Positions 5,726-61,873 of a stretch of 64,000 bases of DNA are shown one piece after another. The notes beneath the pieces are model-generated. The model did not search any database, was not told the origin of the DNA, and saw only the letters and a program-made list of their open reading frames with translations. Source of the DNA: Tachypleus tridentatus (Eukaryota; Arthropoda; Merostomata; Xiphosura; Limulidae); the NCBI RefSeq assembly GCF_004210375.1, contig NC_134834.1, positions 139,285,009 to 139,349,008 on the forward strand, in the 5' to 3' direction. How positions within the stretch are numbered: position 1 is the first letter of the stretch; each line of letters begins with the position of its first letter. The position numbers were made by a program, and so were the translations under genes.

Positions 5726-6040
5726 CTTTAACTTTACCTTATATTTCAGGATTAAGAATTCAATCATTTAATGTTTCTAAAAACTACGACACCTTTATGG
5801 CGTCTTTAAACCTATAAGTAAGATTTCAGAAATGTTGGAGAGTACTGAAGATAAAATAAATTAAAAGATAAAACTGGGATTTACAAGAAAGAATGTGAAT
5901 GTGGGAGCAGTTATAGTGGTCAAACTAAAAAGAAGTTAAAATACAAATTACATGAACATAAATATTACGTAAGATATAATAAAGTAGAAAAGACTGTTAT
6001 AGCAGCACATGTAAAAACAAGAAGAACCATCAAGTAAAAA
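5726..6040 (+). pseudogene. Penelope-like element: GIY-YIG endonuclease fragment
   Basis: Frame with LTLPYISGL (about 5729), then after stops and a shift GIYKKECECGSSYSGQTKKK (from 5877) and KLHEHKYYVRYNKVEKTVIA followed by AHVKT. The GIY...YSGQT pair, the C-x-C and the H-x-x-A-H region are those of the C-terminal endonuclease of Penelope-like retroelements (family from memory). 5' truncated and interrupted. Confidence 0.78.
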
Positions 6041-9300: not shown

Positions 9301-9394
9301 ATGAAACGACTGGGAGCTTTTGCTGCCATTTTTCTGCTAACAGTGTTTTTCAAACAAGTATGTGGCCTTTGTAACGAAAACCCGTCCAATAAGA
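9301..9394 (+). CDS. Exon 1: signal peptide
   Basis: Starts MKRLGAFAAIFLLTVFF, a classical secretory signal. This ATG is the first in the exon and directly precedes the hydrophobic stretch. A cleavage site is likely near VCG/L. Donor gtgagt follows; phase out 1. Codes residues 1-31. Confidence 0.88.
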
Positions 9395-12300: not shown

Positions 12301-15300
12301 CATGGATTAGCTAACGGTGATGATGATTATTTAAGACAATAAATGTATTTTAGTGCAGAATAATATATTCAGTCTGTATAGGTTTGAGTATCAATTTCTT
12401 CAGTGATTGTTCATTTTCTGATGAAAGATAACATATTGGTGTATTGGTTCATAAATGCAAGCATACAGCACTAAATGTGTCGAAACATAGCAGACAAGCA
12501 CAAGTAGTCTGTCTAAAACTACTAGTATATCTGGTAATACGAAACATTGATAATACGTACGACATTATAAATCTATATATTTTGCTAACACAAATGAATC
12601 AGGAAGAAAAATACCTTGTTGTGTGTTAAATCCAAGGGGTCTTCCTCAGACTTCGACTTGACAGAGCTCATGTAAGACCTTCATATTATTTAGCCAAAGA
12701 TATTCCTGTACCTAGAGTCCTCTCAGAGACTATCAAAGCTCTAGAGTGCTAACTATGCTAGTGGTTTGAGCAACATCCGCCAAATCACTGAAAGGAAAAA
12801 CTCTGACAATCTTTGATGACAGTTTGGTGGCATCGAAACCAACTGATGAATTTCACTGCCTGATAAACATTCCCATACCCAATCTTAATGCCTGCCCACA
12901 ACATCCTGGGTATGTATAAAGCTAAAAAGAGAATTAATTTCTACTCATCGAGAAAATACTGAAGACGAAAGGCGGAAGACTTTCGAAACGTCGTCCTCTA
13001 CACTTGTGTTTCCACAACAGGCAGTTGCCGTCCATTCTACAAGTTTCATCATGAATACTTTGCCTAAACAATCTATCAAACAAGAAAAATACTATTTTTT
13101 ATTATTTTTTTACTGTGCAAGTAATTATTTGTCTATAACTTTTGTGAAGGTTTCATTCTATATTTCTGATTTCGACTTTTTTGTATTTGTACGAAGGGTT
13201 ATTTATTTATATTTTAACTTATTTTCCAATACTTTTTTTCATGAATCGGTATTTTATTTTACATATGGTGCCAACATTTGTCTTGTGTGTTATTTCAATG
13301 CATTGTAGCTGCTTATAAAGATAATTTTCCTATCTGATATCCGTGTACGCTTGGTTCAATATAGTTTATTTTGTAATTATAATATAAACTTATTTTTTAT
13401 ATTTTTTTACTTTATGCGAATGACGTATTATATATTTATAATTTCAAGTTGAAGTATTTGTTCCGTATTTATTGTCCAATAATTTATTTTTAGCTTTAAT
13501 ATTTCTTACATCGTGTTACCGTTTTTGAAGATTATAATCTATTTTGTACGTCAGTTAAAATATTCTGTGATATTTACGTATTTATTATATTTCTTTTACG
13601 CTCAATGACGAAGGTTAATTACTTGTCATTGTTCATTTTCGAGATATAACCTTGATTTATATTTGTAATCTTTTTGTATACAACTGCACTCCTGGATTTA
13701 ATTATCTGTAGTTTAGTGTGAGTATTTTATAGAGGGAAAAGTAAATTCTACTGCCATCTTGATCTATGTACAAATTTACGTAATTGAATTTCAAATTTCT
13801 AGACTGTAAATAGCCTGACGGTAAAGGGAAAAGGAAGAATGTGGTATTCAGGTATACTAGCTGTTTTCACCAAGTTATTTAACATATTTTGTTAGTTTAC
13901 ATGCACTGTGTCTGTAGTTTTAACACAGAGCGTTGGTGAAAGAAGTAACTAAATTCACTTAATTCTTGTTATATATTGATCTCGCATGTCATGTGTCCCT
14001 TCTCTTAGGAAGGATCTTTGTCAAGCAAAGCATACTATAAACATAGAGAACGGTGTTTTCCAATGGTGGATTAGGTAAAAAAGATACTTAAATTATAAAA
14101 AAGTTTTTATCATTTAATAAAAAGACAAGATTGGCATAAGAGCCACAAATGCCATTAGAAGAGCAGTATTGCGATAAAAATCAAGTTAAATGCAGATTTG
14201 TTTCCACATTTTTTAAATTTGTCTAGTTTGGATTTCGTGTCTTAATACCTTGTCGGTCTTTAGCGTGAAAGGATTAAGAACATTATTATTTCTTCACTAT
14301 ATTGTTGTATTTTCTCTGTCCGAAACAATCCTTCACAGACTTACACTAACTTCAAACCTACAGTAAAGTCGTCGTTCTTAAGGAATACGTTCACTTGTAC
14401 TTGATTGTAAGCCAAAATAAAGAATGTTTTTACTTCATTTTACAATGCGTTCAGCCTCATTTATTGTGTACAAAGTATGCTTCATCATACATGTTCTGTT
14501 GAACTTCATATTATTCTACAGAACCTGCTCAGTTGCCCTTAAGTGAATTAAGCGTAGCAGAGAACAGTAGACAATAATGAATAATTTTTAAAACCAACTA
14601 GAATTAAAGCGTAGCATGAACTGAAAGTCACAAAGTACAAATAATATTTTAAGACGTTTAAACTAAACTAAATCTCTAAACTAAATATTTGAAAGATCTG
14701 AATATTTGTTATTAAAATTGAATAAGAAACTCAATTTAACACTAGAAGCAAACAAGTTACTCTAATTTTCAAATTCCTTCGAATTATTTATAACATTTTG
14801 GTTAAAAACGACTAAAATATCATTTGAACGGTCCTACAATGAATACGTGAAACTGAAATAGTTTTATAACGAAGTACTGGTTTTTAGACCTTATGTTGCT
14901 AGCTTAACCTTTATTTTATCGTATCTATAAGTTAAAATATCTTATATAATTTATCAGGATATATTATAATCTGTTTTATTTCATTTTACTTTATTCTTTC
15001 AGTGCTCGCATTTCCCGACATATTTGAAGTCGCTGTCAGCAAATTAGGATACCAAGTAACAGTCGAGATCAATGAGAATGAAAAGGTAAAATATCTATTG
15101 CTTTTTTGTTGTTTTAGAACTTTATTTGTTGTTTTAAAATTTATACTGTTTTAGAAAGTGTATATTTCTTAATTATGAAAATTCACGTGTACCAAACAAT
15201 TTTTGTGAGTCTGTACGATAACTGATTTTGATAAGGCGCTTATTTTAATGTACGGAAGAAATGAAAAATAGTCTAATGAAAAAACCTAAAGCCTATGACA

Positions 15301-18300
15301 AAATACTTTTATTGAGTGTTTGAAAATTTAAATCTAAATAAAATTACTACTTTCCCAACAAGTTATTTGCTTAAATAACATAATTGTGGTAAGTATATTG
15401 CTTTATTATATAATTAACAACTCTGCTGCTTATACCTGACTCCAGATGTAATTCATAGTGATAACTTATGTTTATTATAGACTTTTAGCGACAAATGTCT
15501 CTCAATTTTTAAACTTGTTAGTACTTCATATTACGTAGAAACAACAAAAAATGAAAAGATGAAAGCCTGACAACTTAATGTCAGAATAAATTAAAAATTA
15601 TAGATTTTTTTAATGGAACTAAATTCAACTTCCTGTACACCACTGTTTAAAACATCCTTGCAATGACGTATTTAGGAAAAATGTTAAACCAAAACCAAAA
15701 CCAAATTTATATTTCTTTGTTTGTTTTATGGAGCAAAAGTACATTAACGGGAATCGAACATCAAATTTTATCGTTTTAACTTATTAAACTAAACGTTTAC
15801 CCATTGTGCAAAATGAGTTTTTTTTTGATAAAATATAGAACCATAGAAATATTCACGGCATATATAATTACTATTAGAAAGTAACAAAAGTTTTTGAATT
15901 TTGCACAAAGCTACACGAGGGTCATGTTTACTTAAGTATAGATAATTCATTAAATGTGTGTCAGGATTCACATGACATAAATATTTTTATAGGATTCTTA
16001 ATAGGAGATATTTAAACATTTCATAAGAATTAAATTATAAGACTCCGTGATGACGAGAAAACCCAATTGTAGAGAAAATTATGTATGTTAAAAACGATTA
16101 GTATTGATAGAGAATTTACTATGTAGAGAAGCGAACAAAGTTTTGACCTGACGATGACCAAAGAAAGTTGTAACGTTGGTCGCTCCTCTACATAGTGCTT
16201 TCTCTACTCATACCAGCCGTTTTTACATGTATAAAAGATTACTTGGTTATAAATTCAAGCAAAAATATTAGGAGAACAAAATGTTGCCATTTAATGAAAT
16301 TTTATTAATATTTTTTTACAGGAAGCTGTTCCCTAGTGGGAAAGCGGTAAGTTTAAGGCTTCAAACACAAAATTTGGGGTTTGATTTTTCTACAGTAGAT
16401 ACAACAAAGAGCTGAAAAAATAGAAGCTATGAATAATGAATTTATATTTGTTTATCTGATATTCATTCTTAGAAAGAAAGCTTTTTTACTGAAGAATACT
16501 ATGACATATTTAACAAGAGAGGGAGGCTTGACATATTGAAGAATGGCACTAGAATGCTGTATGCCTACTACGAAGAAACTGACGAGTTGTTTAACATTGT
16601 AGGAAACGGTAAAGTTATTTTTACCAGCTAAATGTTGCATTATTGTTTGCAGTTTGTTAAATCATTGTTAATTAAGGATTATCCACTTCTCTTTCCTTGT
16701 TCATCAAATTTATTTCGACTGTAATTATTCCTACCAAGAATTTATTTGATTCAAACTAATGTAAAAATAATGTAAATTGAGGAATAGGGTTTGCTTATTA
16801 CTGGCTGCATATTAATCTATTCCTTCACTTCTCTTGGCTTATCCATTCGGTCTCACAATTTCTTGTCTTATTTTTCTTTGTCTCCCAGCACAACAACGTT
16901 AAGTTTAAGCATTTAAAAGGCTAAAATCCGTAATTCGAATCCCCGCGGTAAACACAGTAAATATTTCATTCAAATCATTTTTTTCAAACACCGCCAAAGT
17001 AACTCCGTTATTTTTATCTAGCATCTATTTCTTTTGCATAGAATTGTAGTATTTCATAACTACGTCTTGTAGTCTCATGAAATACTACGTCTTGTAGTCT
17101 CCATATCGTGCTCACATCAACCGCTGTAATCCCCCAATTCCTTAAAGACTGGCAAGACTGTCCACTTTCTCATCTATCTCAACTTCAATGGATGTTACCT
17201 AAAACTAAATTCGTATATGTAAGTGCAACATTTAAAAAGGTTCACGGTCTTATATTTATATATATATATATAGAGAGAGCCATACCCTTAATCTCATCTG
17301 TTCTACCTGTAGCTTTCAGAGCTCGAATCAGTAAGTTCATAAATTCCGACTTTTCAATTAATTTGCATGACCAAGACATTCAGTCACAAAATCAGGTTTA
17401 ACTCCAGGTGGATGGATCGTAAATGCGTCTACATTTTACTGTCTATTCGCTGTTCTACAAACCACTGTAGAATTAAATTCTTGTTGTAACAGACTCCATA
17501 CAAGAAGTTTTTTGTTTTTATTCTTCACTTTGTTTCAACCACAAATGCTTTGTCTAAGAGAAATAGTCTCAATTTGTCATATTTACACACTATTACCAAG
17601 CATCTTTTTTCAGTGGTGGCTGAGGCTTTCTTGTATTCTAGTAAATTTTGGCTTAAATATGCCACTAGATGTTTTATGCCATTCTCACTAATTTGATTCA
17701 TCACTATATTGGGCGTATAAGTTAGCAATATTCTTATAATTATGTAAAGTTAATTTTTACGCAGAGCCATTTTCTATAGATATCTTCTAAAAGCCTTCAC
17801 GGCATAGTTTATTCCTAATTCATAAGTTAGCGCTCTAAGTGGTACTGCTATTTCTGAAAACCCGAAAATAATCTTCCTTTAACACCATATCATTCCAAGA
17901 TGGTCTGGCATGGCCAGGTGGCTAAGGCACTCGACTCGTAATCTTAGGGTCGCGGGTTCAATTTTCTGTCACATCAAACATGCTCGTTGTGGGGGCGTTA
18001 TAGAGTGACGGTCAATCTCACTATTCGTTGTTAAAAGAGTAGCTCAAGAGCTGGTGGTGGGTGGTGATGACTAGCTGCCTTCCCTTTAGTCTTACACTGC
18101 TAAATTAGGGACGGCTAGCGCAGATAGCCCTCGTGTAGTTTTGCGTAAAATTCAAAACAAACCAAACCACTCCAAGAAAAAGAAATCTAACTACTTTCTT
18201 TGTCAATCTCTAATAGCTTTTATCTTAATTCCATTAATCTTTTACCTATCGTGTTACTTAAATACTCCCTGCTGTCTATTCTAAGCTTGCATTTAGATGT

Positions 18301-51300: not shown

Positions 51301-54300
51301 GTTTAATATGAAATGAATTTTCTTGCAGTGAATTAGTCTATAAGAATAAATATTAAGACGTTTTAAGATATTTTTTCTTTCTATCATGCAGTATACGTAT
51401 ATATATATGAAAATGTTAGAATTTGTTAATAATATTGTTTTTAGTAAGTTTAGTAAATTATATAAAAAGAGAGGAAGCAATATATTCAAAGTCGATAATA
51501 AGTAATGAATCTCTTATTTCTAAAGGGAACTACGTTGATGCCTATGAGAGACTACCGGGTATAACAGTAGGTTCTAAGCCAAAGAAAGCATTTAATATTA
51601 GCGACCTCAACGAATGTGCAAAGGCATGCAGTACGGAAGGAAGCTTTCAGTGCAAATCATTTGACCATTGTCCTCAGTCCAAAGACAAGAAATACTCGTG
51701 TCTCTTACATGAAATTCATTTTTTAGACGCGAAGGACAAAATTGTTGGTGACAAAGCGAAAGTGTGTGGTCATTACTCTCGTAAGTCAACACAATTCTTT
51801 GGTTATAACTCTTCTTAAGTTGATATCAGTTTGTCACATAAAGCGCTAATCATGGTGCAGCTTTAAATTTCGACGTATGAGAAAGTTATTTTGATGATTT
51901 TAAATTTTAAATGATCTGTCTTTCTTTTAATAATTGATTAATTAAAGTACTTTCATATATCAATTGAACTTGGATATTTCCCTTCGAATGTAAATTTAGG
52001 TTTATGTAAAAAAATTAGAATTATAACAACGAAAACGTAATCAAAATACTCAGTTCACTGATTTTCTAAATGCCTTATACCAAAAACTAAATGATAAAAA
52101 ATAAACGTTTCTTTCCAATCCATAAATTTGTGAAAAAAGGTCGGAACACGAAAATTTACATTAAAAACGTAAATTTTAACATTAAAGTTGGCTTTTAACA
52201 CTGGATATACAAATATCTATTAAACTTTGACCTCTTTCTAGTGACTCAGTGACACTTCTGCAAACTTATGATGTCAAAATTTGAGTTTCGACACTCTTGG
52301 TAGATAAAACACTACAATTCTGTAGTTTTGTGCTTAACAATAACGAACCAAACCAAAATGTATTGAAATTCAAAATCGATTTGAGGATTTCGATCTACTG
52401 GAGTTATTTGAATACAGAGTTTGTATAAGATTTATTATAGCAAGAGAGTGTTTGCTGAGTAAAGCCAACTTTCAAACAAAATACACATTTCATGTCAAAC
52501 TGTATGCAAAATGTTAGTTTATCATATAATTTATATAATTAAATCATTTGATATTATTGCAATAGAATTATAGGTTAAGTCAATCTCGTCGGTACTCCAA
52601 AAACACAATAAAGTTTTATGATTAACAGAAGCTAATTAATGTGATTCATTATACAGTGTAGTTATTATCTTTTATTTTATGTTCCCAAAATTTAGGGGAT
52701 TACATTTATGATTTTAAACAAACTGATGGCAAGAAGGTAAATGGTGCAAAAGTGGTTGAATTACAGAATGTCACAGCCAAACACTGCGCAAAAAGGTGCG
52801 TAGAAAATGCAGAGTTTAGCTGTCAAAGTTTCGACTTTTGTCAAGCCACTACTCTGGACAAAAGTACTTGTTTATTGATCGGGAAAGGAAACTCGAAAAT
52901 GGACTTCATAGAAGCTCCTGTTTGTGCCCATTACGAATACCTTGGTACAATAGGTGAGTGCTTATCTTTCATTACAATACTTTTCAGATAGTGAAGCAAA
53001 CTTTATTATTAGACCTTAATTCGTTTATATTTAATATTACTAATCTGGCGTTTATGTTCTGACATTTCGACATATTTTGTGTTTATATAATTATATAACA
53101 TATTTATATTAAATTAATACAGGTTTCCGTTATAATCCAAAAAATTATTTTGATATCTTAAATTTGATATTCACATGATCTTGAGCTGTAACATCATAGG
53201 ATTTATAATTAAGTAACGTTACACTCATTGTTCTCTTATGGACTCGGACATCTCAAACGATGTTACATCCTACTAACAACGATGTAATACCCATCAGTAT
53301 TGCAAATATAATGACTTTGAATCCTTCACGTCATGGAGGTCAGATTTATCTGAATGGGGACTTTCTATGAGAGCAATCATGTTAGATGGTGATAGAAATG
53401 TGCTTCTGGAGAAGTCCCCCTCAACTCATAAGTACAAAGTTCATCATAGCTAATACTGGCAGTGCGCATCTTCGATAATGCAACTCTTTTTCATAACTTT
53501 TTTCTAGCATTCATATTAATATTTTATGTAATATCTAATTATTAAACATCTATTTAACCACTTGAACTACCAACTATGTTCGATGGACATGAGCTCATAG
53601 GCTTCCATGGAGATCGCAGGCCTTCAACAAATGTTCAGTAAAGATATTCTTAGATTTATATAATTCAGTAATTACATAATACACAAATTTCTAAATAATT
53701 TCCTGGTTGACTCCCATATGGTAACTTCTTATGGATTTTGGATGACATCATATACGCCCACTATAGGTGCTATCTTCTTGAATGATGCCACATTCGCTCG
53801 TTTCATGATACTCAACCCTGGCGTGATTTCTGGTTAACATACACTCATCATCAAATCGTCGTTGAATATTGTAGGAGCAAAGTAACTATGGTCTGGCATG
53901 ATCAGATGGCTAGGACTTTTGAATTGTAATCTGAGGGTTGCTGGTTTGAGTCCTTGTCACACCAAAGATGTTTGCTCTTTCAGCCGCGAGGATGTTATAA
54001 AGTTACAGCCAATTTCACTATTCGTTGGAAAAATAATAGCCCAAGAGTTGGCGATGAGCGATGATAACTAGTTGCCTTTCTCTAGTTTTATACTGCTAAA
54101 TTAGGGACGAATAGCGCAAACAGCCTTAGTGTAGCTTTGCGCGAAATTTAAAACAAACAAGTAAAACAGCTTCATCTTGACCTTCGAGAGGCTTTAACCA
54201 CAATTTATATGTGTAAGTGCGCATAAGTTTGCAAGTGTTGTTAACCTATAGAAGCTAGGAATGTTATGATGAAAAAATCAATTTTGATACAGTATGAATT

Positions 54301-57300
54301 GTTAATGTGTTTTGTTTTATTAAACACTCACAAGCATTCATAGGAGGACATTGCCCTGCTGTAAAGTTGTTACGTATTACGATTTATCTCGAACGAGCCT
54401 CCAGTTTATTATATTAAATATTACAATTTAAATTCCTCAGTTGGACATAACTGTGCTAGTTTATCGAAACTATTGCCAACTTGTATACACCATCGATCAA
54501 AATAAACCTTTTTTTTGTGGGTAAATTCCATATGTTTAATTATCTCTGTGATAATCTCAAAACTTTTGGAATAAGCCTCTGGTATTAACTCATATGCTTT
54601 AACCTTATTATAATTCGTACATTATACAAGAGATAGAAAGGCATAAGCTTCTTGTGCTTTACCAGTTAAAATCTCTGTAATAATAATGCCCATTTTCGGT
54701 GGCCATTCCATGGTTTGGGCAACCTTCTCAAACTATTGGAAATATTTATGAACTTAATTTTCATTAATTCTTGGTACTTTAGCATATCGATTAAGTTTAA
54801 ATATGTCATTTGTCTTGGTAAATCGGAGTTGAGTCTAATTTCCATTTCTATTAGCCTTATTTCATTTTTGTCTTCATTGCAACCTTTTTCCACTTCGAGA
54901 CGTTTATTTTCTCTTTCAGCTTCTTCAAGCTCAATTTCTTTGAGTTTTAGCTGTATCTGTAGCTTATCTTTATCACTCGACTTCCCCAAATACTTCCTTA
55001 GATAACAAATCATCGTCGACTAGTATTTCAATAATATGTTTTTAATTCATTTTATCTAATTAATTTATTAACTTCTAGTTCTAAAATTTTGGCAATTTCA
55101 ACCATTTCACTTTTGTTACACCTATCTAGTTGTCCGATAGAGGGTGATACCATGAAACCTCGAAAATCAGATGTGATCAAATTTTGTTGGCTTTGATAAA
55201 TATAAATTGAGTTATGACCTGAATTTTAATTTAGATCTAATTTCGCTTCTGATTCAGATCCCTGACGAGGTCCCAATTTATACATTACATATTACAATTT
55301 GAAATAACCTGAAACCATGTTAAATTGTAATTTAGATTTAGAAGTTAATTACATGTCGGTATGAGCTAAATTTATGATATTTGCCAACAAGAATAATATA
55401 CACGGTTTTCTTTCATTTTTGTTCACATGTATATTTCAATATACAAATAAGTGCCCTCCTTGAAACTCTTGTTAATTTGTTATATCTTTCACTACACAAC
55501 AGAGAAAGATTTAAAATTATATATTTTAAAAACACACTCGACAAGTATGATCTCAAATCCTAATTTTAACACTAGCTTTCGTAAATGCCTGAAATTTTCA
55601 TGATTTTAAGTTACATTTTCTCATAAAAAGTGTTGTACAACTGCTGTGGTTTCTTAGACTTCTTATTCCAAGTAGCCTATAAAATCTCAAACAAGGTATG
55701 CGAAATTAACAACATTTGCAAGAAAGACCACTTTTTCTGTCCACCCCTTGTGTATAAAATGTATATGTTATAAGAATTTTCAAAATGATATAGTGCGAGT
55801 ATCAAAACATCACGTATTGTCTTAAAGTACGTTCCATTACAGTCACACGTCCCTTAACACAGCTAAATGCTTGCGTATTTATGACGCTAGAAACCAGGTT
55901 TTGATATCTATGGTGGGTATAGCACAGATAGCCCATAGTATGGCTTTGTGCTTAACTTCAAACAAATTAAACGAGGACATTATGATCACTGAAAGTTTAT
56001 CTATCTTCTATTCTAATTAAATGGATTATTATTATTGTTTTATATTCTGCGATTAACTTTTGTCATATTAAAATATATATTATTTCTGTATTTGCTAAAT
56101 CTAAAGTTACTTTATATGTTCTCATAAACAACTAAACTGTGACATATCAGGTTATTAATGTAATTGCTCATAATTTCGGGAAACCAATAAAGATAATGAT
56201 AAGATTTAAGCTCTAAGGTTTAACAGTGTACATGATGCAGACGAAAACACTGCTTGTTATTAACTTTATTTCATCACATATTGTGAGAGATTTTACAAAG
56301 TGTAACTCCGTTAATAGTATTCCGTTTTTGTATATAAGCGTATATTTTTAATATAAAGAAATGAAATACGTTCTATATTAAGGTAGATGTTTCTAACAAT
56401 GTAGACATTTTTATAAAGTTATGTAAATATATATTTCTTGATTTAAAACGTTTAAAACCTTTTATGTATTTTTTTACCTGTATAGAACCATCGTTAGATG
56501 AAAGAAGTCGTTATTCCACTGGTGGGTATTGTAGTTATTTCTTGCTTTCTTGAACTTAAGTGTGTGATCTATAAAACATCTTTTAAAGCTTTAAAATGAT
56601 CTTTTGAATTTGTTTTATTGCAATAAGAGTAAACTATTCTTTACTATCAATTTTCAAACAATTAAAAATTGTAGCCTGGGTTTATGAGAAGATCATCCAT
56701 CTAGTTTAGAGATCGTTTTTGAAGTTTAAAACAAGAGTTTACATGATAAGTAACTAAAAGTCACTACGAACATTTAGTTACATAGGAAAGTGACGTGTTT
56801 CTTACACACTATACTCAGTCAATCAGAGATTAGCTCTGCTATCTGGATTGAGGGTTTAAACTTGTTGCTGTTCACTGGTAGGTTACAGAAAGTTTAGACC
56901 GTAAACCCTTCAAATCTCTGTTTGCATCTTAGGCACTTGAATGCACATCATACGAGGAGACTGACCACCTTATCGTTGCCTTTTTATTACTGTAAAGCAA
57001 AAACTGTCTTATCTAATCTCAGTTTTTAAATATACGTGATACTTCTATACGTGAATAACATAACTGTCTATAATTTTTCATATTTTATATGTTTCGCATA
57101 AATCAAATAATACCAAAATAATATAAGACTAGAGCTATCCTCTTCCTGTGTATATCATACTTAACATCCGTGTTTGAACTTGAATAATTCTATTTTTATA
57201 AAATTAAACATGAAAATTTTTAATATTGTCAGATTCTTTATGAAATACATATATATTTACCAATTATGAATGTTTCAGCAAGTTTTGTCTTGAAACTAAA

Positions 57301-59256
57301 CATGAGGTTAACTCAGTCGAGAGGAAACTATTTAAGATAAAGATATTTTGATTTCTTGAAAGCTCTACACATCAAACGTGTGCCAGATGTTCCTTAAATA
57401 TTGAAGGAATAATTGTAACTTAAATATTAAAAAAAATGTTTTTGTTTTGATATTCAACCTTAAACCTCAATACTTTGATATGTACTATTTAAACAGTTAA
57501 TAAATAATTCACAGTGTTATGTTAGCATGTTTATAATAACAGGCAATTTTCACGTACAGAAGCCTAAAGTATTTGAAACAGTCCTTTCACTTTCGTTTCT
57601 TATATAACAAAGATAAACATTAGTAAGCTCATACGTCACACATGAACATGTAACTAAATGACTGTTATATGTAAAGTGACATAACAAAATATGGAAGTGT
57701 TTTGAATACGGCTTTAATGATACTACGTGAACTACTTTATTTTTGCAGTACGCAGAATTTTAGCACAATTCTGTTTTTCTGTTCTTGATAAAATGTGTTT
57801 CTGAGTATATTTCAGCCTACTGTTGATATGAAACTGTTTAAAACCACTCCAAACTCAGGCGTTGGGAACTCTTTCAATGATGATAAAAGTAACCTAATGC
57901 TGTTGTCTTGCGAGACAAAACCATGTGAATAAAGAGAAAGTAGGCCAAACAATAACTCTTACTTCAAATTACAGAATTTCGTAAGCTTAACTCAACACCT
58001 TCAGACCACTTCAATATTGAAAAACTTTGAATTTTCACTGCTACGAGATGTTCTTTATTTGAAATTAACTTTATGATTTTCTTTTAGTTAAAATTAGAAT
58101 AAAGGTACATAATAAGCAGTTATAACGTTTCCTGAAAGGATTTAATGTTTTCGTAGACTGAACAAAAAACTAAATTTGTTACATTAGCTTAAACCTAATC
58201 TGCCATTTTTAAAACTTACTCAGTTTTTAACTACAAATAATAAGTAAAATGTGAAGTTAACTTATTATGTTATTGTTTAATGAAATACATTTAAGATGAT
58301 GTTTTCATAAAGTGCTAAAGACGAAAACTGAAATAAACATTTCTCAAGTTTGTTTGTTTTGGAATTTCGCACAAAGCTACTTGAGGGCTATCTGTGCTAG
58401 CCGTCCCTAATTTAGCAGTATAAGACTAGAGGGAAGACAGCTAGTCATCACCAACCACCGCCAACTCTTGGGCTACTCTTTTACCAACGAAAAGTGGGAT
58501 TGACCGTCACATTATAACGCCTCCACGGCTGGGAGGGCGAGCATGTTTGGCGCGACTCGGGCGCGAACCCGCGATCCTCAGATTACGAAGCGCACGCCTT
58601 AACGCACTAGGCCATGCCGGGCTGATTTCTCAAGTAAACAAATGAAATGTTGTTCCAATATTTTATCACCATTCTATTTAGCTTTATACCTTGTATCACA
58701 AACCATTTTCCTATAAGTCCAAGATTCAAGCTTTTAAAAAGGTGTCTAACATATAATATACATCATTTTACAACAAAGTTAAAAAATTATTTTTTAAAAT
58801 TGAACTAAAACATATGGAAGAATACCTACATTAAAAACATAGAGTTAAATCCGTTTGAATCCTTAGTATATAGTTCATTTGAGGAATAAAATACAAGTGA
58901 GTTCCAACTTCACCCGCAGTTTTATACGGGGAAATATATATGCCTTTTTTTTTTTTTAGTTTAGCACCAGTTTTGCATGCATCTGTATCCTTGTAAAGTA
59001 ACGATGTGTTTCCAGACTTTTAACGCTAAAATCCGGGGGTAGATTTCCTAGACACTAAAACAACCTAACAAATATGAATGCGTTTAATTTTAAGGTGCAT
59101 AATTACTTGACTTCAATAATTTTGAGGTAAATTAAATAATTTCATGTTTTTTTTCTAGGTCTTGGAATAGGTCTAGCCTTTTTCTTTATTATTCTGGGGA
59201 TCATATTAGGAGCAGTGGCCCTATTCATATACGGATATAGAAAAGCCAACAAGTGA
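9301..59256 (+). CDS. 23-exon gene: LolA-like/PAN-Apple single-pass membrane protein (uncharacterised)
   Basis: Joining 23 GT..AG exons, with phases matching at every junction, gives 961 codons and a TGA stop. Residues 1-22 are a signal peptide (basic start, hydrophobic core, Val-Cys-Gly near the cleavage site). Residues 30-533 form a long ectodomain. Its motifs VRDMTANRWRQC, IDYYFL and FQIPTGLGCE, and the later YTINMDYKNCSI, recall the invertebrate LolA-like family (family match from memory, inferred). Residues about 534-602, 670-746, 747-831 and 832-912 are four PAN/Apple-like modules with six cysteines each. Exons 17-18 form a cysteine-free linker. Residues 930-953 are a transmembrane helix, followed by a short YGYRKANK tail. 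The likely location is the cell surface with the N terminus outside. PAN modules usually bind protein or glycan, and LolA folds bind lipid, so a lipid- or ligand-binding surface protein is possible, but function is unknown. N-glycosylation sequons occur at NGT, NCS, NIS and NVT. Confidence 0.85.
10536..10613 (-). repeat. SINE family A, head fragment
   Basis: Contains gattcgaactcgcgact, cagattacgagtcgaac and ctggccatgccgg. The rest is absent. Head to head with the next fragment. Confidence 0.7.
10614..10660 (+). repeat. SINE family A, divergent head fragment
   Basis: Reads cttgcccggtggttagagc then actcgacttgcaatcc, the same head subtype as 9060. Here too it is paired head to head with a normal A copy. 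Confidence 0.6.
11030..11520 (+). pseudogene. Ty3/Gypsy-type pol relic (RT end to RNase H)
   Basis: Frames, with stops between them, read TEKCDKAF (about 11036), then a degraded ILDTDAS region (LDTVLFDST), then KKELLAVVVFIVQN (about 11240) and HYLCDRKFSIRVDDAS followed by LKWLKNF (11289-11355). These are the RNase H-region landmarks of Gypsy retrotransposons. A degraded EYDLAVLYR follows. No LTR found. Confidence 0.75.
12620..13010 (+). other. Unidentified retroelement-like tail with hammerhead-like motif
   Basis: Higher-complexity DNA than its surroundings, open for short stretches (for example AKDIPVPRVLSETIKALE near 12690) but broken by stops. It ends in the hammerhead-like motif at 12959-12996. 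Possibly the end of a Penelope-like or retrozyme element; not proven. Confidence 0.35.
12959..12996 (+). ncRNA. Hammerhead ribozyme-like core
   Basis: CTGAAGA at 12959-12965 (the CUGANGA box), a hairpin gaaag/ctttc with an 8-base loop (12967-12984), GAAA at 12985-12988, then a short stem III and a GTC cleavage triplet at 12993-12995. One extra base separates the first box from stem II, and stem I is poor. The copy is probably inactive. Confidence 0.5.
15003..15085 (+). CDS. Exon 2: start of the LolA-like ectodomain
   Basis: Acceptor tttctttcag, donor gtaaaa, phase 1 in and 0 out. Encodes LAFPDIFEVAVSKLGYQVTV and a few more residues: an alternating hydrophobic beta-like segment opening the ectodomain. 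The intron before it is about 5.6 kb. Confidence 0.85.
15886..15925 (-). repeat. SINE family A, tail fragment
   Basis: Only aatttt gcacaaagctacacgaggg remains, inside intron 2. Confidence 0.5.
16088..16229 (+). ncRNA. Hammerhead-like structure with long stem I
   Basis: Arms at 16088-16136 and 16178-16229 pair over about 45 bases with some mismatches (gtagagaag with ctcctctac is the inner part). The loop carries CTGACGA at 16148-16154, a weak hairpin, GTAA at 16170-16173 in place of GAAA, and the triplet GTC at 16179-16181 closed by A-T and C-G pairs over a gttg loop. The layout is that of a type I hammerhead. The A to T change in the GAAA box should kill catalysis. Confidence 0.55.
16330..16396 (+). 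repeat. tRNA-like SINE fragment (family C-like)
   Basis: gtgggaaagcggtaagttt, then a degraded B-box (ggggtttgatttt), 77 bases upstream of the exon 3 acceptor. Confidence 0.4.
16473..16608 (+). CDS. Exon 3: ectodomain, first domain
   Basis: Acceptor attcttag, donor gtaaag, phase 0 in and 1 out. Contains FFTEEYYD, a GRLDIL strand, an NGT glycosylation sequon and MLYAYYEETDELFNIV. The helix-then-strand pattern fits the N-terminal part of LolA-like domains in the invertebrate family. Residues 60-104. Confidence 0.87.
17046..17102. repeat. Small duplicated and inverted repeat
   Basis: tacgtcttgtagtctc occurs twice, and gtagtatttcat / atgaaatactac form inverted arms around the first copy. It can fold as a hairpin; likely a replication-slippage scar. 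Confidence 0.6.
17480..18870 (-). pseudogene. LTR-retrotransposon pol relic (RT and RNase H), SINE-interrupted
   Basis: On the - strand: EIDKLL..K (about 18710), SGPYALAV (about 18675), a degraded DLRMLNGATIANSYQLPHP (about 18570), TDLLKGYFKVNLKEK (18475-18525) and a degraded thumb. After the SINE at 17901-18168 comes a 67-codon RNase H segment (17525-17728) with HLVAYLSQNLLEYKKASATT, EKRCLVIV and FVVET. This is the Gypsy-like order RT then RNase H, in antisense to the host gene. Confidence 0.8.
17901..18168 (+). repeat. SINE family A, full length
   Basis: Head ggcatggccaggtggctaag, acgcgggttcaat-type B box, body and (caaaac)n-type tail, all in the + orientation. It is inserted inside the older pol relic, which dates it as younger. 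Confidence 0.88.
19200..19870 (-). pseudogene. gag-like relic of the same antisense retroelement
   Basis: On the - strand, a charged coiled-coil stretch (ELGMKCLEAENKSLEEKLR, about 19770-19830) precedes other broken frames toward the pol relic. Position, order and strand fit gag followed by pol. Frames are badly damaged, so the call depends on context. Confidence 0.5.
20088..20178 (+). repeat. SINE family B, 5' truncated
   Basis: caggtttcaatgggctt, then ggacagagaacagatagc, cattgtgtagctttgtgc and a tail of aaac units. Confidence 0.7.
21144..21289 (+). CDS. Exon 4: ectodomain, first domain
   Basis: Acceptor tatttttcag, donor gtaagt, phase 1 in and 0 out. Begins GPCKVTPITS and includes LLGPSAMFRHGYLDY. 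A GPSA(L/M)F.F-type motif is a marker I recall from the LolA-like family. Residues 105-153. Confidence 0.87.
21990..22095 (-). repeat. SINE family B copy
   Basis: Reversed: gcataaagctacacaatg, gggtatcgaaacctggtttc, tactactgtgccactagg. No (aaac)n tail is visible. Confidence 0.7.
23018..23282 (-). repeat. SINE family A, full length
   Basis: tttgtttgttttggaatttc at the left and ccacctagccatgctgggcc at the right. The head lacks about 10 bases around the B box (gtatttgaacacccgacc). Confidence 0.85.
24420..24498 (+). other. Cassette-like alternative (possible poison) exon
   Basis: This 79-base segment has a good acceptor (tttctttccag) and a donor (gtacta), and is open in the frame continuing from exon 4. 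It is not a multiple of three. Including it shifts exon 5 into a frame that hits TAA soon after its start, before the VRDMT motif codons are read. Skipping it restores the family-like join. It may be a regulated poison exon or chance. Confidence 0.35.
24579..24684 (+). CDS. Exon 5: ectodomain with VRxxxxxxWxxC motif
   Basis: Acceptor ttttcttag, donor gtgaga, phase 0 in and 1 out. Joins directly to exon 4 in frame. Encodes VYMGKESSPGVRDMT then ANRWRQCL and IDYYFL. This matches the V-R-x-I-P-x-x-x-W-x-x-C...W-Y-F pattern of the LolA-like family. Residues 154-188. Confidence 0.88.
25443..25711 (-). repeat. SINE family A, full length
   Basis: All parts present from gcttttaatttcacgcaaag to ctggccatgccgag, with an intact gattcgaactcgtgacc B-box arm. 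It lies in intron 5, 257 bases before exon 6. Confidence 0.85.
25968..26137 (+). CDS. Exon 6: ectodomain, second half of the first domain
   Basis: Acceptor ttgtttcag, donor gtaatg, phase 1 in and 0 out. Encodes SYFTDSTWENYLGDKNLPVP, a beta strand LRIVIKSKD and FLKFIPFIENPSNVFQ, which runs into the next exon's IPTGLGCE. The P..VFQ-P.G..C junction is typical of the LolA-like family. Residues 189-245. Confidence 0.88.
26906..27058 (+). CDS. Exon 7: start of the second ectodomain segment
   Basis: Acceptor tttatctatag, donor gtaagt, phase 0 in and 0 out, 51 codons. Starts IPTGLGCERLAQGLKKPVDL and ends in a strand AYSYSINFK. An acidic/basic stretch (VPKEEETNK) is a probable surface loop. Residues 246-296. 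Confidence 0.88.
27059..28975 (+). other. Intron 7 (1.9 kb)
   Basis: AT-rich. A weak tRNA-like fragment may lie at 27840-27955 (gaaccgaacctgcga, taggccacac). The ORF at 28219-28518 on the - strand shows no recognisable feature. Confidence 0.4.
28976..29096 (+). CDS. Exon 8: second ectodomain segment
   Basis: Acceptor cccctacag, donor gtaagt, phase 0 in and 1 out. Encodes VIYSRDSEHLVHTYNKWERS and SLKDVYGFKD, repeating the strand pattern of exon 3 (IDIL..YAYY), as expected of a tandem domain. Residues 297-336. Confidence 0.86.
29640..29820. repeat. Diverged direct repeat, copy 1
   Basis: Shares blocks with 30310-30470: tcatcat..tctttcttc, a core of agcaaaaca.tctt, and attattattttt.tatg. The order is conserved, with roughly two thirds identity by eye. 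The element is not identified. Confidence 0.4.
30128..30232 (+). repeat. SINE family C copy
   Basis: Family C has a tRNA-like head with a (g)gttcgattcc B box, then ggctcagcagatag and gatgtggcttt(g)ct followed by an aaaccaaaacacacac tail. Here: gacgttcgattcctctcac, ggactcagcagatagtctg. Confidence 0.7.
30310..30470. repeat. Diverged direct repeat, copy 2
   Basis: Second copy of the block at 29640-29820, with an interstitial difference around cttgttatagcagtaac. The two copies are separated by a family C SINE. Confidence 0.4.
30537..30980. mobile_element. Inverted-repeat element (MITE-like), about 0.44 kb
   Basis: Left arm 30537-30630 and right arm 30896-30980 are reverse complements at roughly 70-75% by eye. 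The best blocks are tatgtagggct with aagccctacgtaga, gagaag..aaccaaccaaa with gtttggttacgttttctc, and aatggaagt with acttccatt. There is no ORF inside. The pattern fits a non-autonomous DNA transposon; target-site duplications were not identified. Confidence 0.55.
31500..31628 (-). repeat. SINE family B/C-like copy, diverged
   Basis: agtttgtttgtttttaatcac, then acaaagctgtacattcg, and near the far end ccgctaagccactatgaggg. The B-box region is lost. Confidence 0.5.
31700..31812 (-). repeat. SINE family C copy
   Basis: Reversed: tttttatagcaaaaccacat, ggggctatttgatgtg, ggaatcaaacccctgattttg and ccgttctcccaccggg. Confidence 0.72.
31821..32055 (-). repeat. SINE family A with internal deletions
   Basis: The body lacks the segment around ctagagggaaggcagctag and part of ccacggctgaaag. 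The head is intact (gatctaaacccgcgactc, cacctggccttgccg). Confidence 0.8.
32596..32750 (+). CDS. Exon 9: second ectodomain segment
   Basis: Acceptor ttttttag, donor gtttgt, phase 1 in and 0 out. Encodes LYTINMDYKNCSI, with the NCS sequon, then LYLPFKRELLLTNPNI and FYYMGE. The Y.I....C.I motif parallels the exon 3/4 junction (FNIVGNGPCKV). Residues 337-388. Confidence 0.87.
33756..33911 (+). repeat. Tandem repeat, 52 bp x 3
   Basis: Three copies of a 52-base unit beginning gatcaggatgtgaaatacg and ending attggtgacttggt. Copies 2 and 3 are identical, and copy 1 differs at one base (tttctgg versus tttgtgg). The array ends 48 bases before the exon 10 acceptor. Confidence 0.92.
33960..34070 (+). 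CDS. Exon 10: second ectodomain segment
   Basis: Acceptor ttaacttag, donor gtgagt, phase 0 in and 0 out, 37 codons. Encodes SEERNIPVSVFEKKVKMF and ILSAFVVITRYYTS. A 52-bp triplicated repeat ends 48 bases before the acceptor. Residues 389-425. Confidence 0.85.
34939..35028 (+). CDS. Exon 11: second ectodomain segment
   Basis: Acceptor gttacacag, donor gtatgt, phase 0 in and 0 out, 30 codons. Encodes NEVSYGSDRVETQVPIRVTL and RAYDDLKKPK. The VP(I/V)R strand after a long loop fits the end of a LolA-like domain. Residues 426-455. Confidence 0.85.
35612..35717 (+). repeat. SINE family B copy
   Basis: tggcactaagtccacggact, agaaacccggttcag, agatagcccattgcgtag and ctttgtgcttaactttaaac. An indel disrupts the B box and following segment. 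Confidence 0.7.
36353..36471 (-). repeat. SINE family B copy
   Basis: Reversed, from tttgtttgtaattaagcac to cgctgtaccactgggggac, with a readable tatcgaaatctggattctag head. It abuts the palindrome that begins at 36519. Confidence 0.78.
36519..36914. repeat. Long palindrome (about 185-200 bp arms)
   Basis: The left arm begins agtgaacataattacattct, and the right arm ends taatgtaatta-type sequence, with aaggaaggactgcgtt/aacgcagtccttcctt, acgctgcatca/tgatgcagcg and gccgaaacaaa/tttgtttcggc as matching blocks. At the centre, gggtaca/tgtaccc closes a small loop near 36700. A 30-base block of the right arm (agttaaaata.caaattatat) recurs at 37523-37545, just after the Penelope-like relic. Confidence 0.8.
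37031..37440 (+). pseudogene. Penelope-like element: zinc-finger plus GIY-YIG endonuclease relic
   Basis: First frame: TDCRNCNDAYVTKCNSKRCF, TCPALNTFHHIT, then YLLTCTKCNMKYVGQTSNSL. After a frameshift near 37240: LKHFRIHLF, ILEIVNK and LQREHFYILKHRTSYPL, with a degraded GLN end. The Cys-rich linker followed by the GIY-YIG core (YLL..KYVGQT) and late Glu is characteristic of Penelope-like retroelements. The RT part is missing. Confidence 0.85.
38787..38841 (+). CDS. Exon 12 (tentative): ENIFDDTPDD segment
   Basis: This 55-base piece is needed because exon 11 ends in phase 0 and exon 13 requires phase 1. It reads EENIFDDTPDDVRLRCPD, resembling the N-I-(Y/F)-D-F-..D motif I recall at this point in the family. 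The acceptor (aacaag) has no good pyrimidine tract and the donor is gtattt, so one or both boundaries may be wrong. A better tract precedes gtaag at 38763-38765, but that acceptor does not keep frame. Confidence 0.4.
38951..39066 (+). CDS. Exon 13: helix-rich ectodomain segment
   Basis: Acceptor tatatttcag, donor gtatgt, phase 1 in and 0 out. Encodes a probable helix (YDVLKSLPIVAAIKQNFLQQ) followed by ADISPLRIPKVM. Together with exon 14 it forms an alpha-beta unit with I.PLR(I/V)...V.V.F....V wording like the C-terminal module of LolA-like invertebrate proteins. Residues 474-512. Confidence 0.84.
39402..39465 (+). CDS. Exon 14: end of the LolA-like region
   Basis: Acceptor tatgttttag, donor gtaagt, phase 0 in and 1 out. 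Encodes VDFTTKEMFITALLLERPPY, a beta strand pair closing the exon 13 unit. Residues 513-533. Confidence 0.85.
39466..42348 (+). other. Intron 14 (2.9 kb)
   Basis: Carries one SINE-B copy (41.2 kb) and a loose local duplication around 40000-40090 (acattctctagt occurs twice). No gene seen. The two opposing ORFs at 41157-41405 both lie in the SINE. Confidence 0.5.
41222..41338 (-). repeat. SINE family B copy
   Basis: Reversed: gtatgcacaaatcttcacaa, gtctatctgtgctctgcc, tcgaaacccggtttctagcg, cagacataccgctgtgccac. The head is nearly consensus. Confidence 0.8.
42349..42460 (+). CDS. Exon 15: PAN/Apple module 1, first half
   Basis: Acceptor ggatttag, donor gtatgt, phase 1 in and 2 out. Encodes FDLVISKGLREPSATFGI then SEDCAKACLESFVEC. 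The C-x3-C pair on a helix is the PAN/Apple hallmark. This is the only module split by an intron inside the domain. Residues 534-570. Confidence 0.85.
42461..44052 (+). other. Intron 15 (1.6 kb)
   Basis: AT-rich with one SINE-C copy near 43.5 kb. Nothing else recognised. Confidence 0.45.
43497..43606 (-). repeat. SINE family C copy
   Basis: Reversed: tttattttatagcaaagtt, gggacatcgaacctctta, ttttagcgttgtaaatccat, cttaccgttataccagcgg. The final accgttataccagcggt-type sequence makes a short local palindrome with the bases that follow. Confidence 0.7.
44053..44147 (+). CDS. Exon 16: PAN/Apple module 1, second half
   Basis: Acceptor atgtgtttcag, donor gtaagt, phase 2 in and 1 out. Encodes GFAYCGATCYFTSKEYSED and ends NDCDFYK. 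It supplies the last three of the module's six cysteines in the usual C..C....C order. Residues 571-602. Confidence 0.87.
44329..44603 (-). repeat. SINE family A, full length, low divergence
   Basis: Close to the apparent consensus (gagggctatctgtgctagcc, gtgtaagactagagggaagg, gaacccgcgaccctcggatt). It belongs, with the copy at 58349, to a subtype with gggcgcgaacccgcga in the B-box arm. Likely a recent insertion. Confidence 0.9.
45272..45548 (+). repeat. SINE family A, full length
   Basis: Head ggcatggacaagtggttaag, B-box-like gcgtttgaatctg, complete body, tail gcgaaattaaaaaacaaac. Confidence 0.86.
45800..45925 (+). repeat. SINE family C, best copy
   Basis: Complete in the + orientation: cccctgctcgtacagtggta, agtctccggattagcaatgc, caggggttcgattccccttg (B box), ggctcagcagatagctgg, gtggctttgctaaaagaa and an (ac)n tail. 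It defines the family in this window. Confidence 0.82.
46655..46770 (-). repeat. SINE family B copy, tail degraded
   Basis: tactggtatcgaaacctggt and cttacagctcagacacttgg mark the reversed head. The body is diverged. Confidence 0.65.
46858..47006 (-). repeat. SINE family A, partial
   Basis: caacaccaccacttttgggc, gatccgaacttgcaaccc, ccacaaggtcatgccaag: head plus half of the body. One of the more diverged A copies. Confidence 0.7.
47254..47508 (-). repeat. SINE family A with deletion
   Basis: tttgtttgtttgatttgaat through to ccacctggctttactaagcc. It lacks the cggctgaaagggcgagc segment. Confidence 0.8.
47685..47797 (+). CDS. Exon 17: cysteine-free linker
   Basis: Acceptor gttgtaattag, donor gtagta, phase 1 in and 0 out. 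Encodes LIKEEDATPTMDVVASRL and GSVRRGEFYFTIRTADDE. No cysteine and no recognised domain; it forms a single unit with exon 18 between PAN modules 1 and 2. Residues 603-640. Confidence 0.8.
48323..48403 (-). repeat. SINE family B, partial
   Basis: gagcagaaatctactcaaag, gggctatctgtgctcttc, gtatcgaaacccggattc. The far end of the head is missing. Confidence 0.65.
48789..48861 (+). CDS. Exon 18: cysteine-free linker, second part
   Basis: Acceptor acttgtgcag, donor gtgagt, phase 0 in and 1 out. Encodes TTYKALEFYDKLASGINGFE and ends QRPS. The first part is a probable amphipathic helix. Residues 641-664. Confidence 0.8.
49645..49694 (-). repeat. SINE family B, tail fragment
   Basis: ggtttattattaggcacaaa followed by gttacaccatgggctt only. 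Confidence 0.5.
49730..49856 (-). repeat. SINE family B, full length
   Basis: atttgtttgtttgtgattaa, tggtatcgaaacccggttac, gcatgccactgtgccactgg. All landmarks present. Confidence 0.8.
50560..50805 (+). CDS. Exon 19: PAN/Apple module 2 (whole domain)
   Basis: Acceptor aaattttcag, donor gtaagt, phase 1 in and 1 out. Encodes one complete module: FTVYKYTTKFY strand, TFETCKRACIDLPLCESLSY helix region, then C, ECLLS and QCVIL. Six cysteines. The symmetric 1-1 phase makes it a shuffle-ready cassette. Residues 665-746. Confidence 0.9.
51526..51780 (+). CDS. Exon 20: PAN/Apple module 3 (whole domain)
   Basis: Acceptor atttctaaag, donor gtaagt, phase 1 in and 1 out. Begins NYVDAYERLPGITVG, then FNISDLNECAKACSTEG, QCKSFDHCPQ, SCLLHEIHFLD and VCGHYS. 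Six cysteines and a glycosylation sequon (NIS). Most similar to module 4 (exon 21) in spacing and in the SFD.C and SCLL motifs, which suggests recent tandem duplication. Residues 747-831. Confidence 0.9.
52696..52953 (+). CDS. Exon 21: PAN/Apple module 4 (whole domain)
   Basis: Acceptor aaaatttag, donor gtgagt, phase 1 in and 1 out. Begins DYIYDFKQTDGKKVNG, then ELQNVTAKHCAKRCVENAEF, SCQSFDFC, TCLLIGKG and VCAHYEYLG. Six cysteines plus an NVT sequon. Sister module of exon 20. Residues 832-917. Confidence 0.9.
53890..54163 (+). repeat. SINE family A, full length
   Basis: ggtctggcatgatcagatgg at the head, gctggtttgagtccttgtc B-box arm, gcgcgaaatttaaaacaaac at the tail. Confidence 0.85.
54430..55270 (-). 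pseudogene. LTR-retrotransposon gag relic
   Basis: Reading the - strand: an N-terminal MVSPSIGQLDRCNKSEMVEI region (about 55155), LVDDDLLSKEVFGEVE (about 55020-54975) and a Glu/Lys-rich coiled coil (QLKLKEIELEEAERENKRLE). Next come ANISNSL-like then WNGHRKWALLLQRF, then in another frame ILTGKAQEAYAFLSL (about 54650), ELIPEAYSKSF and FDRWC...FDKLAQLCPTEEF. This follows, block by block, the SCAN-like gag of arthropod Gypsy-type elements (LLQ.LTGKAQEAY). It carries several stops and shifts. No pol follows. Confidence 0.78.
55886..55972 (+). repeat. SINE family B, 5' truncated
   Basis: cgctagaaaccaggttttg, tggtgggtatagcacagata, ggctttgtgcttaacttc. Confidence 0.7.
56486..56521 (+). CDS. Exon 22: 36-base stalk exon
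   Basis: Acceptor cctgtatag, donor gtgggt, phase 1 in and 1 out. Encodes only PSLDERSRYST plus split codons, a short juxtamembrane stalk. It is symmetric, so skipping it would keep frame. Residues 918-929. Confidence 0.7.
58349..58623 (-). repeat. SINE family A, full length, low divergence
   Basis: Near-identical in long stretches to the copy at 44329, including the gggcgcgaacccgcga variant and gggagggcgagcatgtttgg. Probably the same young subfamily. Confidence 0.9.
59010..59052 (+). repeat. SINE family C, head scrap
   Basis: tttccagacttttaacgcta followed by aaatccgggggtagatttcc, 107 bases before the final exon's acceptor. Confidence 0.45.
59159..59256 (+). CDS. Exon 23: transmembrane helix and C-terminal tail
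   Basis: Acceptor tttttctag, phase 1 in. Encodes LGIGLAFFFIILGIILGAVA then LFIYGYRKANK and TGA. The helix is about 24 residues with GxxxG-like glycine spacing, and the basic tail fits the inside-positive rule. Residues 930-961. Confidence 0.92.
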
Positions 59257-59590
59257 AGAATTTTCAACAAGTGGTGTTTCATGCCGATATTCGCATAGCT
59301 CACTTTTATTGTATTTAATGACTTTCGTCGTTAGTTCTTGAAGTGTGAAGACGAGTGTTTAACAAAATAATTTAAGTTGTATTGTTCTCTATGTTTCATA
59401 AAGTACTGGAACGACTTTATTCTTCAAATACATAAACTCAAAACACAATTACTGTCCAAACTATTATGTAGCACACAGTAACCGTAAGATAACATATATT
59501 TAAACCGTTGTATAAATTTGGATTAGTTTAATTCACCTTAGCTATACTTCGTTGATCATTATAAATAAAATACAATTAAAGCAAGATTTC
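59257..59590 (+). other. 3' UTR
   Basis: AT-rich sequence with no further splice-compatible ORF after the TGA at 59254-59256. It ends near the AATAAA at 59564, giving a 3' UTR of roughly 0.33 kb. Confidence 0.6.
59564..59569 (+). promoter_or_regulatory. Polyadenylation signal AATAAA
   Basis: First canonical AATAAA after the stop codon, about 310 bases downstream. Cleavage is expected 10-30 bases later. Confidence 0.6.
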
Positions 59591-61399: not shown

Positions 61400-61522
61400 T
61401 TGTTGTTTTGTATTAAGCACAAAGTTGCACGTTGAGCTATCTGTGCTCTGCTCACCACCAGTATCGAGACCCGGTTTTTAGTGTTGTAAGTCTACAGATA
61501 TACCGCTGAGCTACTGGGGGGC
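61400..61522 (-). repeat. SINE family B, full length
   Basis: ttgtattaagcacaaagttg, cagtatcgagacccggttt, gatataccgctgagctactg. Confidence 0.8.
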
Positions 61523-61597
61523 TATCTAAACGTACCAATGAATTATCATTTTAAATTCTTACCGTGTTATGTTTTGTTAACATGTCAAATAGTGACG

Positions 61598-61873
61598 ATT
61601 TGTATGTTTTTGAATTTCGCACAAAGCTACACGAAAGCTAACTGCGCTAGCCGTCCCTAATTTAGCAGTGTAAGTCTATAGAGAGGGCAGCTAGTCATCA
61701 CCACCTACTGTCAACTCTTGGGCTACTCTTTTACCAACGAATAGTGGGATTGACCCTAACATTATAACGCTCCCACGGCTGAAAGGGCGAGCATGTTTGG
61801 TGCGACGGGGATGCGAACCCGCGACCCTCAGAGTACAAATCGCACGCCTTAACCCACCTGGCCATGCCGGGCC
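61598..61873 (-). repeat. SINE family A, full length
   Basis: All segments present, from tttttgaatttcgcacaaag to cacctggccatgccgggcc. The 86-codon - strand ORF over it is a chance reading of the SINE head. Confidence 0.88.

Follow-up and report, generated by a model that had tools for sequence, protein, structure and literature searches.

EPDR1 is a LolA-fold protein in which the disulfides C42-C172 and C113-C210 are kept across several clades, together with the conserved residues D70, R77, W151, P174, F191 and F204, according to the structural account (PMC6363788). An assay described in a second report suggested that it binds fatty acids (PMC6608618), and the eukaryotic LolA-fold structures in these papers (EPDR1, 2019) are soluble proteins of uncertain function. 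Among the papers listed by searches of the open-licence PMC literature, none appeared from title and abstract to deal with an animal protein combining LolA with PAN modules. An invertebrate family called LolA-like probably carries motifs such as RGIxCDVW, PVRV and FDVSSC, with its domains in the order LolA-LolA-PAN-TM. Here we describe what appears, from its sequence, to be a single working animal gene whose product is a predicted type I membrane protein of comparable layout, crossing the membrane once, in which the PAN modules and the membrane anchor are readily recognised and the larger N-terminal half is named by none of the profile libraries searched.

Gene model and predicted product

The window, a 64,000-nucleotide stretch of Tachypleus tridentatus DNA (C10:139285009-139349008 of a 2.17-Gb assembly in 205 contigs), was searched on its + strand for exons of compatible phase, and boundaries were then fixed by hand. 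The spliced model made from the sequence runs on the + strand from an ATG at 9301 to a TGA at 59256 through 23 exons (Table 1), and all 22 introns, 335 to 5608 bases in size, are GT-AG. The first-pass annotation had also described 23 exons joining in frame, and both the outer coordinates and the exon count are the same in the new model; its figure of 961 residues for the product had to be replaced, the model encoding a conceptual protein of 987 residues with a reading frame unbroken from ATG to TGA. The automatic chain had contained 25 exons, from which five short ones were dropped (four before exon 3 and one before exon 16), and exons 2, 13 and 14, absent from that chain, were placed by eye from frame and motif. 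When each internal exon was left out and scored with codon weights from the remaining exons, against all phase-compatible AG..GT open intervals between its neighbouring exons (29 to 231 rivals each), 20 of 21 ranked first and exon 14 ranked 2 of 65. Margins were smallest for exons 14, 17 and 15, which scored 2.6, 6.4 and 5.6 where the top candidate not overlapping them scored 3.4, 6.0 and 4.3; each of the three is matched by a homologous exon of a paralogue located on contig C14. An acceptor-like site lies immediately 5' of exon 1, as it does in the paralogue, suggesting a 5' non-coding exon.

Table 1. Exons of the gene model and flanking features, in window positions.
Feature	Position	Strand	Basis
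Exon 1: start codon, predicted signal peptide, residues 1-32	9301..9394	+	gene model, hydropathy
Exon 2: start of domain A	15003..15085	+	gene model, leave-one-out, paralogue counterpart
Exon 3: domain A	16473..16608	+	gene model, leave-one-out, paralogue and neighbour homologues
Exon 4: domain A (C107)	21144..21289	+	gene model, leave-one-out, paralogue and neighbour homologues
Exon 5: domain A (W172, C175)	24579..24684	+	gene model, leave-one-out, paralogue, neighbour
Exon 6: domain A	25968..26137	+	gene model, leave-one-out, paralogue, neighbour
Exon 7: end of domain A (C252), start of domain B	26906..27058	+	gene model, leave-one-out, paralogue, neighbour
Exon 8: domain B	28976..29096	+	gene model, leave-one-out, paralogue
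Exon 9: domain B (C349)	32596..32750	+	gene model, leave-one-out, paralogue, neighbour
Exon 10: domain B	33960..34070	+	gene model, leave-one-out, paralogue (29/37 identical), neighbour
Exon 11: domain B	34939..35028	+	gene model, leave-one-out, paralogue, neighbour
Exon 12: end of domain B (C483)	37595..37724	+	gene model, leave-one-out, paralogue, neighbour
Exon 13: between domain B and PAN1	38951..39066	+	gene model, leave-one-out, paralogue
Exon 14: between domain B and PAN1	39402..39465	+	gene model, paralogue, similar equal-length neighbour exon; rank 2/65
Exon 15: PAN1, first half	42349..42460	+	gene model, Pfam, leave-one-out, paralogue
Exon 16: PAN1, second half	44053..44147	+	gene model, Pfam, leave-one-out, paralogue
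Exon 17: linker	47685..47800	+	gene model, leave-one-out, equal-length homologous exon in paralogue
Exon 18: linker	48789..48861	+	gene model, leave-one-out, paralogue
Exon 19: PAN2	50560..50805	+	gene model, Pfam, paralogue
Exon 20: PAN3	51526..51780	+	gene model, Pfam, paralogue
Exon 21: PAN4	52696..52953	+	gene model, Pfam, paralogue
Exon 22: 12-residue stalk	56486..56521	+	gene model, leave-one-out
Exon 23: predicted membrane helix, 8-residue tail, stop	59159..59256	+	gene model, hydropathy, homologous paralogue exon
Candidate polyadenylation signal AATAAA	59564..59569	+	consensus match only
Space between the convergent window gene and neighbour gene	59257..64000	.	neighbour stop ~190 bases past window end

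The protein is laid out as a signal peptide, an ectodomain of ~525 residues, four PAN modules, one membrane helix and an 8-residue tail, the ectodomain being divided into domain A (residues ~32-252), domain B (~253-483) and a region of ~75 residues before PAN1. Hydropathy (19-residue windows, cut 1.6) singled out two segments and no others, the signal peptide at residues 4-25 and the anchor at 952-984, a combination of N-terminal signal and one C-terminal membrane helix that predicts a type I single-pass protein and agrees with the single membrane anchor proposed earlier. A Pfam search of the conceptual protein recovered the PAN half of the first-pass reading, while a match to LolA was absent: PAN_1 was detected at E 9.1e-17 in four stretches, with 61.1 bits for the whole protein against a curated cut-off of 21.4. 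The six-cysteine spacing C-x3-C-x(5-7)-C-x5-C-x(3-9)-C-x(17-21)-C was present in 4 of 4 modules, and in all four modules of a neighbouring gene; with the PAN_1 matches it confirmed the four PAN/Apple modules noted at first, and the window protein is, by these sequence features, of the PAN/apple kind. Exons 19, 20 and 21 each encode one PAN module and the first PAN spans exons 15 and 16. A PDB search with a profile of the three PAN exons matched plasminogen (E 1.6e-4), and the PAN half used as a single-sequence query had no PDB match. AlphaFold2 modelling of exon 20 (PAN3) from three sequences gave strands and one helix at a pLDDT of 52.5, a quality too low for use as a structure query. No protease or kringle domain was detected in the protein by Pfam.

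All eight introns at module boundaries (signal/ectodomain, ectodomain/PAN1, PAN1/linker, linker/PAN2, PAN2/PAN3, PAN3/PAN4, PAN4/stalk and stalk/anchor) are phase 1, as are 12 of the 22 introns overall, and the associated hypergeometric value of 0.0015 is descriptive only since the boundaries were drawn with the exon map in view. Phase-1 module boundaries are the pattern to be expected of exon-shuffled extracellular modules. Of the 23 exons, only the stalk exon, exon 22, lacked an identified counterpart in the C14 paralogue; it may be optional, a direct join of exon 21 to exon 23 also being in frame.

Repeats and possible traces of mobile elements were also observed in the window. The core of an interspersed repeat, probably a SINE, occurs in five copies within 3 mismatches, at 18113-18145 on the - strand and at 23038-23070, 44352-44384, 58370-58402 and 61620-61652 on the + strand, and was contained in 0 of 100 shuffles. 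Pieces at 2043-2500 (-) matched HTH_Tnp_Tc3_2 at E 0.08 only and resemble a Tc1/mariner transposase, and reading-frame pieces at 37025-37433 (+) and 5855-6037 (+), for which GIY-YIG was matched at E 0.05 by 37025-37258 and nothing by the others, resemble a retroelement GIY-YIG endonuclease. The intron before exon 10 holds 3.1 copies of a 52-base tandem unit (33756-33914).

A paralogue on C14 and a convergent neighbour

A six-frame search of the genome with the ectodomain found, beyond its own exons, a locus on C14 in two inverted copies ~0.3 Mb apart, at 29.83-29.86 Mb (-) and 30.187-30.250 Mb (+). The two are 97.7% alike over one 11.8-kb stretch and may represent either a recent duplication or two uncollapsed haplotypes. 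Counterparts of 22 of the 23 window exons follow one another in unchanged order in the first copy. The second yielded 18 of them (5-21 and 23), with an assembly gap directly upstream of exon 5 and exons 1-4 absent from the stretch read. Frames are broken in both copies, in exon 6 of the first and in exons 9 and 10 of the second, and breaks at different exons suit assembly errors. When the paralogue was read exon by exon, the first copy supplied every exon except exon 6, which was taken from the second.

All 22 paralogue exons have AG/GT ends (or the start or stop codon), and 16 of them are equal in length to their window counterparts. Phases agree as well, but agreement in phase and length is partly imposed, 19 of the 22 having been searched at the window phase with equal length favoured at 0.05 per base. 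The paralogue is identical to the window protein at 536 of 961 aligned residues (56%), with 175/253 in PAN exons 19-21 versus 273/515 in exons 2-14. All 30 non-signal cysteines are kept, namely six per PAN module together with C24, C107, C175, C252, C349 and C483. Between the paralogue and its own convergent PAN neighbour lies a tandem array of 110 copies of a 52-base unit (C14:30270001-30275728, cut by the start of the stretch read), differing in sequence from the 52-base unit in the window, and further tandem arrays occupy the paralogue introns that precede exons 17 and 23.

PAN_1 matched at least 93 places in the genome at E<=0.001, including sites just past the window and beside both C14 copies. 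The 40 kb downstream of the window contain a second gene on the opposite strand, which converges on the window gene so that 4.9 kb separate the two stop codons, and which has the same layout as far as read. Its exons include counterparts of exons 3-7, 9-12 and 14, a split PAN1, PAN2, PAN3, PAN4 and the membrane helix, in a model in which some boundaries are unfixed, the window phase was demanded and equal length was favoured at 0.02 per base; a counterpart of exon 2 was not found in the 40 kb read, and those of exons 8 and 13 are candidates only. PAN exons of a counterpart of this neighbour lie beside the first C14 copy. Both the C14 paralogue and, as far as read, the diverged neighbour share this layout, supporting the original proposal that ectodomain and PAN modules are fused in one gene.

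PAN_1 exons are numerous and clustered on C2, C4 and C8. The C2 cluster was considered as a possible wider LolA-PAN array and set aside: in the 20 kb of it that were read (108.73-108.75 Mb), PAN-like exons abound and the ectodomain has no match at E<=1. No relatives were found in viral, prokaryote-genome and phage collections.

The tandem ectodomain and its likeness to EPDR1

Alignments that include the neighbour point to an ectodomain built from two homologous domains of ~220 residues in tandem, a relationship seen within the neighbour and between neighbour domain A and paralogue domain B. Neighbour A against neighbour B scored 55 with BLOSUM62 (1/2000 shuffles as high) and 84 with BLOSUM45 (0/2000), and the score of neighbour A against paralogue B was reached by 0/2000 and 1/2000 shuffles with the two matrices, respectively. 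The neighbour sequences compared here are without exon 2 and the split codons, and candidate exon 8 is included in them. The same-domain pairs, neighbour A-window A and neighbour B-window B, were equalled by 0/2000 shuffles with both matrices. Three other cross-domain pairs were not significant, with 396 and 214 of 2000 shuffles as high for neighbour A-window B, 491 and 103 for window A-neighbour B, and 473 and 269 for paralogue A-neighbour B. In the window protein itself, pairwise alignment of A and B was no better than shuffles, pairing by exon was equalled by 719/3000 shuffles and profile-profile comparison by 18/100 column shuffles; matching exons 3-6 to exons 8-11 by eye gave no significant result and was discarded. 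The repeat became visible only once the diverged neighbour was brought in. There, the two domains share a motif, IRGIKCNMW...YYF in A and IRGIRCDVW...YYF in B, and an alignment of all six domains has ten invariant columns, including those of the two outer cysteines (in domain A, C107 and C252), a P-x-R and an F.

The LolA fold assigned at first pass to residues 30-533 was recognised by no profile search and no PDB sequence search. In Pfam, neither LolA nor the ependymin family (PF00811) was matched at E<=10 by the window, paralogue or neighbour ectodomains. The ectodomain had no significant match in NCBIfam, nor in the PDB when searched by sequence and by profiles of 2 or 6 sequences. Matches of the ectodomain to CAMSAP_CKK (E 0.015-0.027, below the cut-off) and other PDB matches at E 0.17 or worse were taken as chance.

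We also compared the ectodomain with the anchor residues of EPDR1. Domain A of both the window protein and the paralogue contains C, D, R/K, C, W, P, F, F and C in this sequence, the R77 position being K in the latter, at a tolerance, picked after looking, of +-30 for the long loops and +-3 for the last three gaps. Column shuffles matched it in 29 and 63 of 5000 cases singly and in 2/5000 in both. At +-25/+-3 only the paralogue matched and at +-30/+-2 only the window protein, and at a spacing of +-15 or +-20 neither did. The pattern without C42 was matched by the window protein at +-30/+-3 (41/5000 shuffles) and failed at +-10 and +-20. In the neighbour, domain B matched the order, and domain A did not do so even when the last gaps were permitted to differ by 4. 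The likeness to EPDR1 in two-domain layout, conserved cysteines and anchor order is suggestive only, and a LolA fold for domains A and B is plausible.

Proposed function and comparison with known systems

The reading that we tentatively prefer is of one gene in which domains A and B form a beta-clam (LolA/EPDR-like) tandem, carried on four PAN modules and an anchor and presenting a hydrophobic ligand. The product would most likely be a membrane-tethered binder of such a ligand, a putative assignment, and would belong to an uncharacterised invertebrate family. Domains A and B would adopt beta-clam folds, whose concave face would hold a hydrophobic ligand such as a lipid, and the ectodomain cysteines would pair. 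The PAN modules may serve as a stalk and contact protein or glycan partners, and the protein might present, capture or hand over the ligand or act with a co-receptor; since it has almost no cytoplasmic tail (8 residues), it would not be expected to signal alone. The lipid- or pathogen-binding receptor role suggested at first pass is putative.

It could also be that domains A and B are unrelated to LolA, perhaps forming a new fold, in a receptor for adhesion or matrix binding that makes its contacts through the PAN modules, an alternative nearly as probable as the preferred reading. It accords with the failure of every library searched to recognise the ectodomain, with EPDR1 anchors that match only at loose spacing and are absent from neighbour domain A, and with the better conservation of PAN exons 19-21 than of exons 2-14 in the paralogue; against it, the cysteine and aromatic anchors in the same order, the tandem units of ~220 residues and the secreted N-terminal position resemble EPDR. 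We consider it unlikely that the protein is an innate-immune receptor, putatively for recognition of pathogens or lipopolysaccharide. Such a role, otherwise inferred from PAN and lipid-binding folds, would fit a membrane-anchored protein that has candidate ligand-binding modules in tandem and comes from a small group of duplicated genes, but the 8-residue tail is no signalling tail and no large expansion was seen, the ectodomain queries matching only C10 and C14 at E<=1 (a weak argument, as the diverged neighbour was missed too).

Two further alternatives concern the gene itself. That two adjacent genes, one for a secreted ectodomain and one for a PAN receptor, were wrongly joined might be suspected from the 2.9 kb intron at the exon 14/15 boundary and from exon 14 being the weakest exon, but the two halves follow each other in both the C14 paralogue and the convergent neighbour, a shared layout that makes a false join very unlikely, and the exon 14/15 junction is phase 1 like other module boundaries. 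Hardly credible is a window copy that is a decaying pseudogene: broken frames occur, though in the C14 copies only, and the window copy has no disabling change, with 987 open codons, 22 GT-AG introns and every non-signal cysteine kept relative to a 56%-identical paralogue.

The ligand-presenting tandem that we prefer extends to a bolder and more doubtful proposal, a membrane-anchored branch of the LolA/EPDR lipid-binding superfamily with two grooved tandem domains on four PAN modules, encoded by a convergent and duplicated gene pair and unseen by the profile libraries searched. If true, the protein would serve to capture lipids, or to pass them on, at the surface of the cell, and a membrane-tethered tandem LolA would offer a system in which to test lipid movement by the LolA fold at the animal cell surface. 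If the LolA guess is wrong, the genes would define a conserved receptor-like family with an ectodomain fold of an unfamiliar kind. Either way, this is an architecture that has been kept while no searched profile library names its larger half.

Compared with EPDR1 and ependymin-related proteins, the window protein shares a secreted N-terminal signal, a domain of ~200 residues, cysteines at the places of both disulfides and D/W/P/F/F anchors in identical order (PMC6363788). It differs in having no ependymin profile match, in its two domains in tandem fused to PAN modules and an anchor, and in loop spacing that is off by up to ~27 residues. With bacterial LolA and LolB it would share only the suggested fold and hydrophobic groove; no sequence similarity was found, the window protein is a cysteine-bearing animal membrane protein, and no Lol pathway is implied. 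With the plasminogen PAN, plasma kallikrein and the HGF N domain it has in common the PAN_1 family and six-cysteine modules, whereas its four PAN modules stand next to the membrane with neither protease nor kringle. A last comparison is with the putative invertebrate LolA-like plus PAN proteins of the databases, which would share both the motifs and the domain order.
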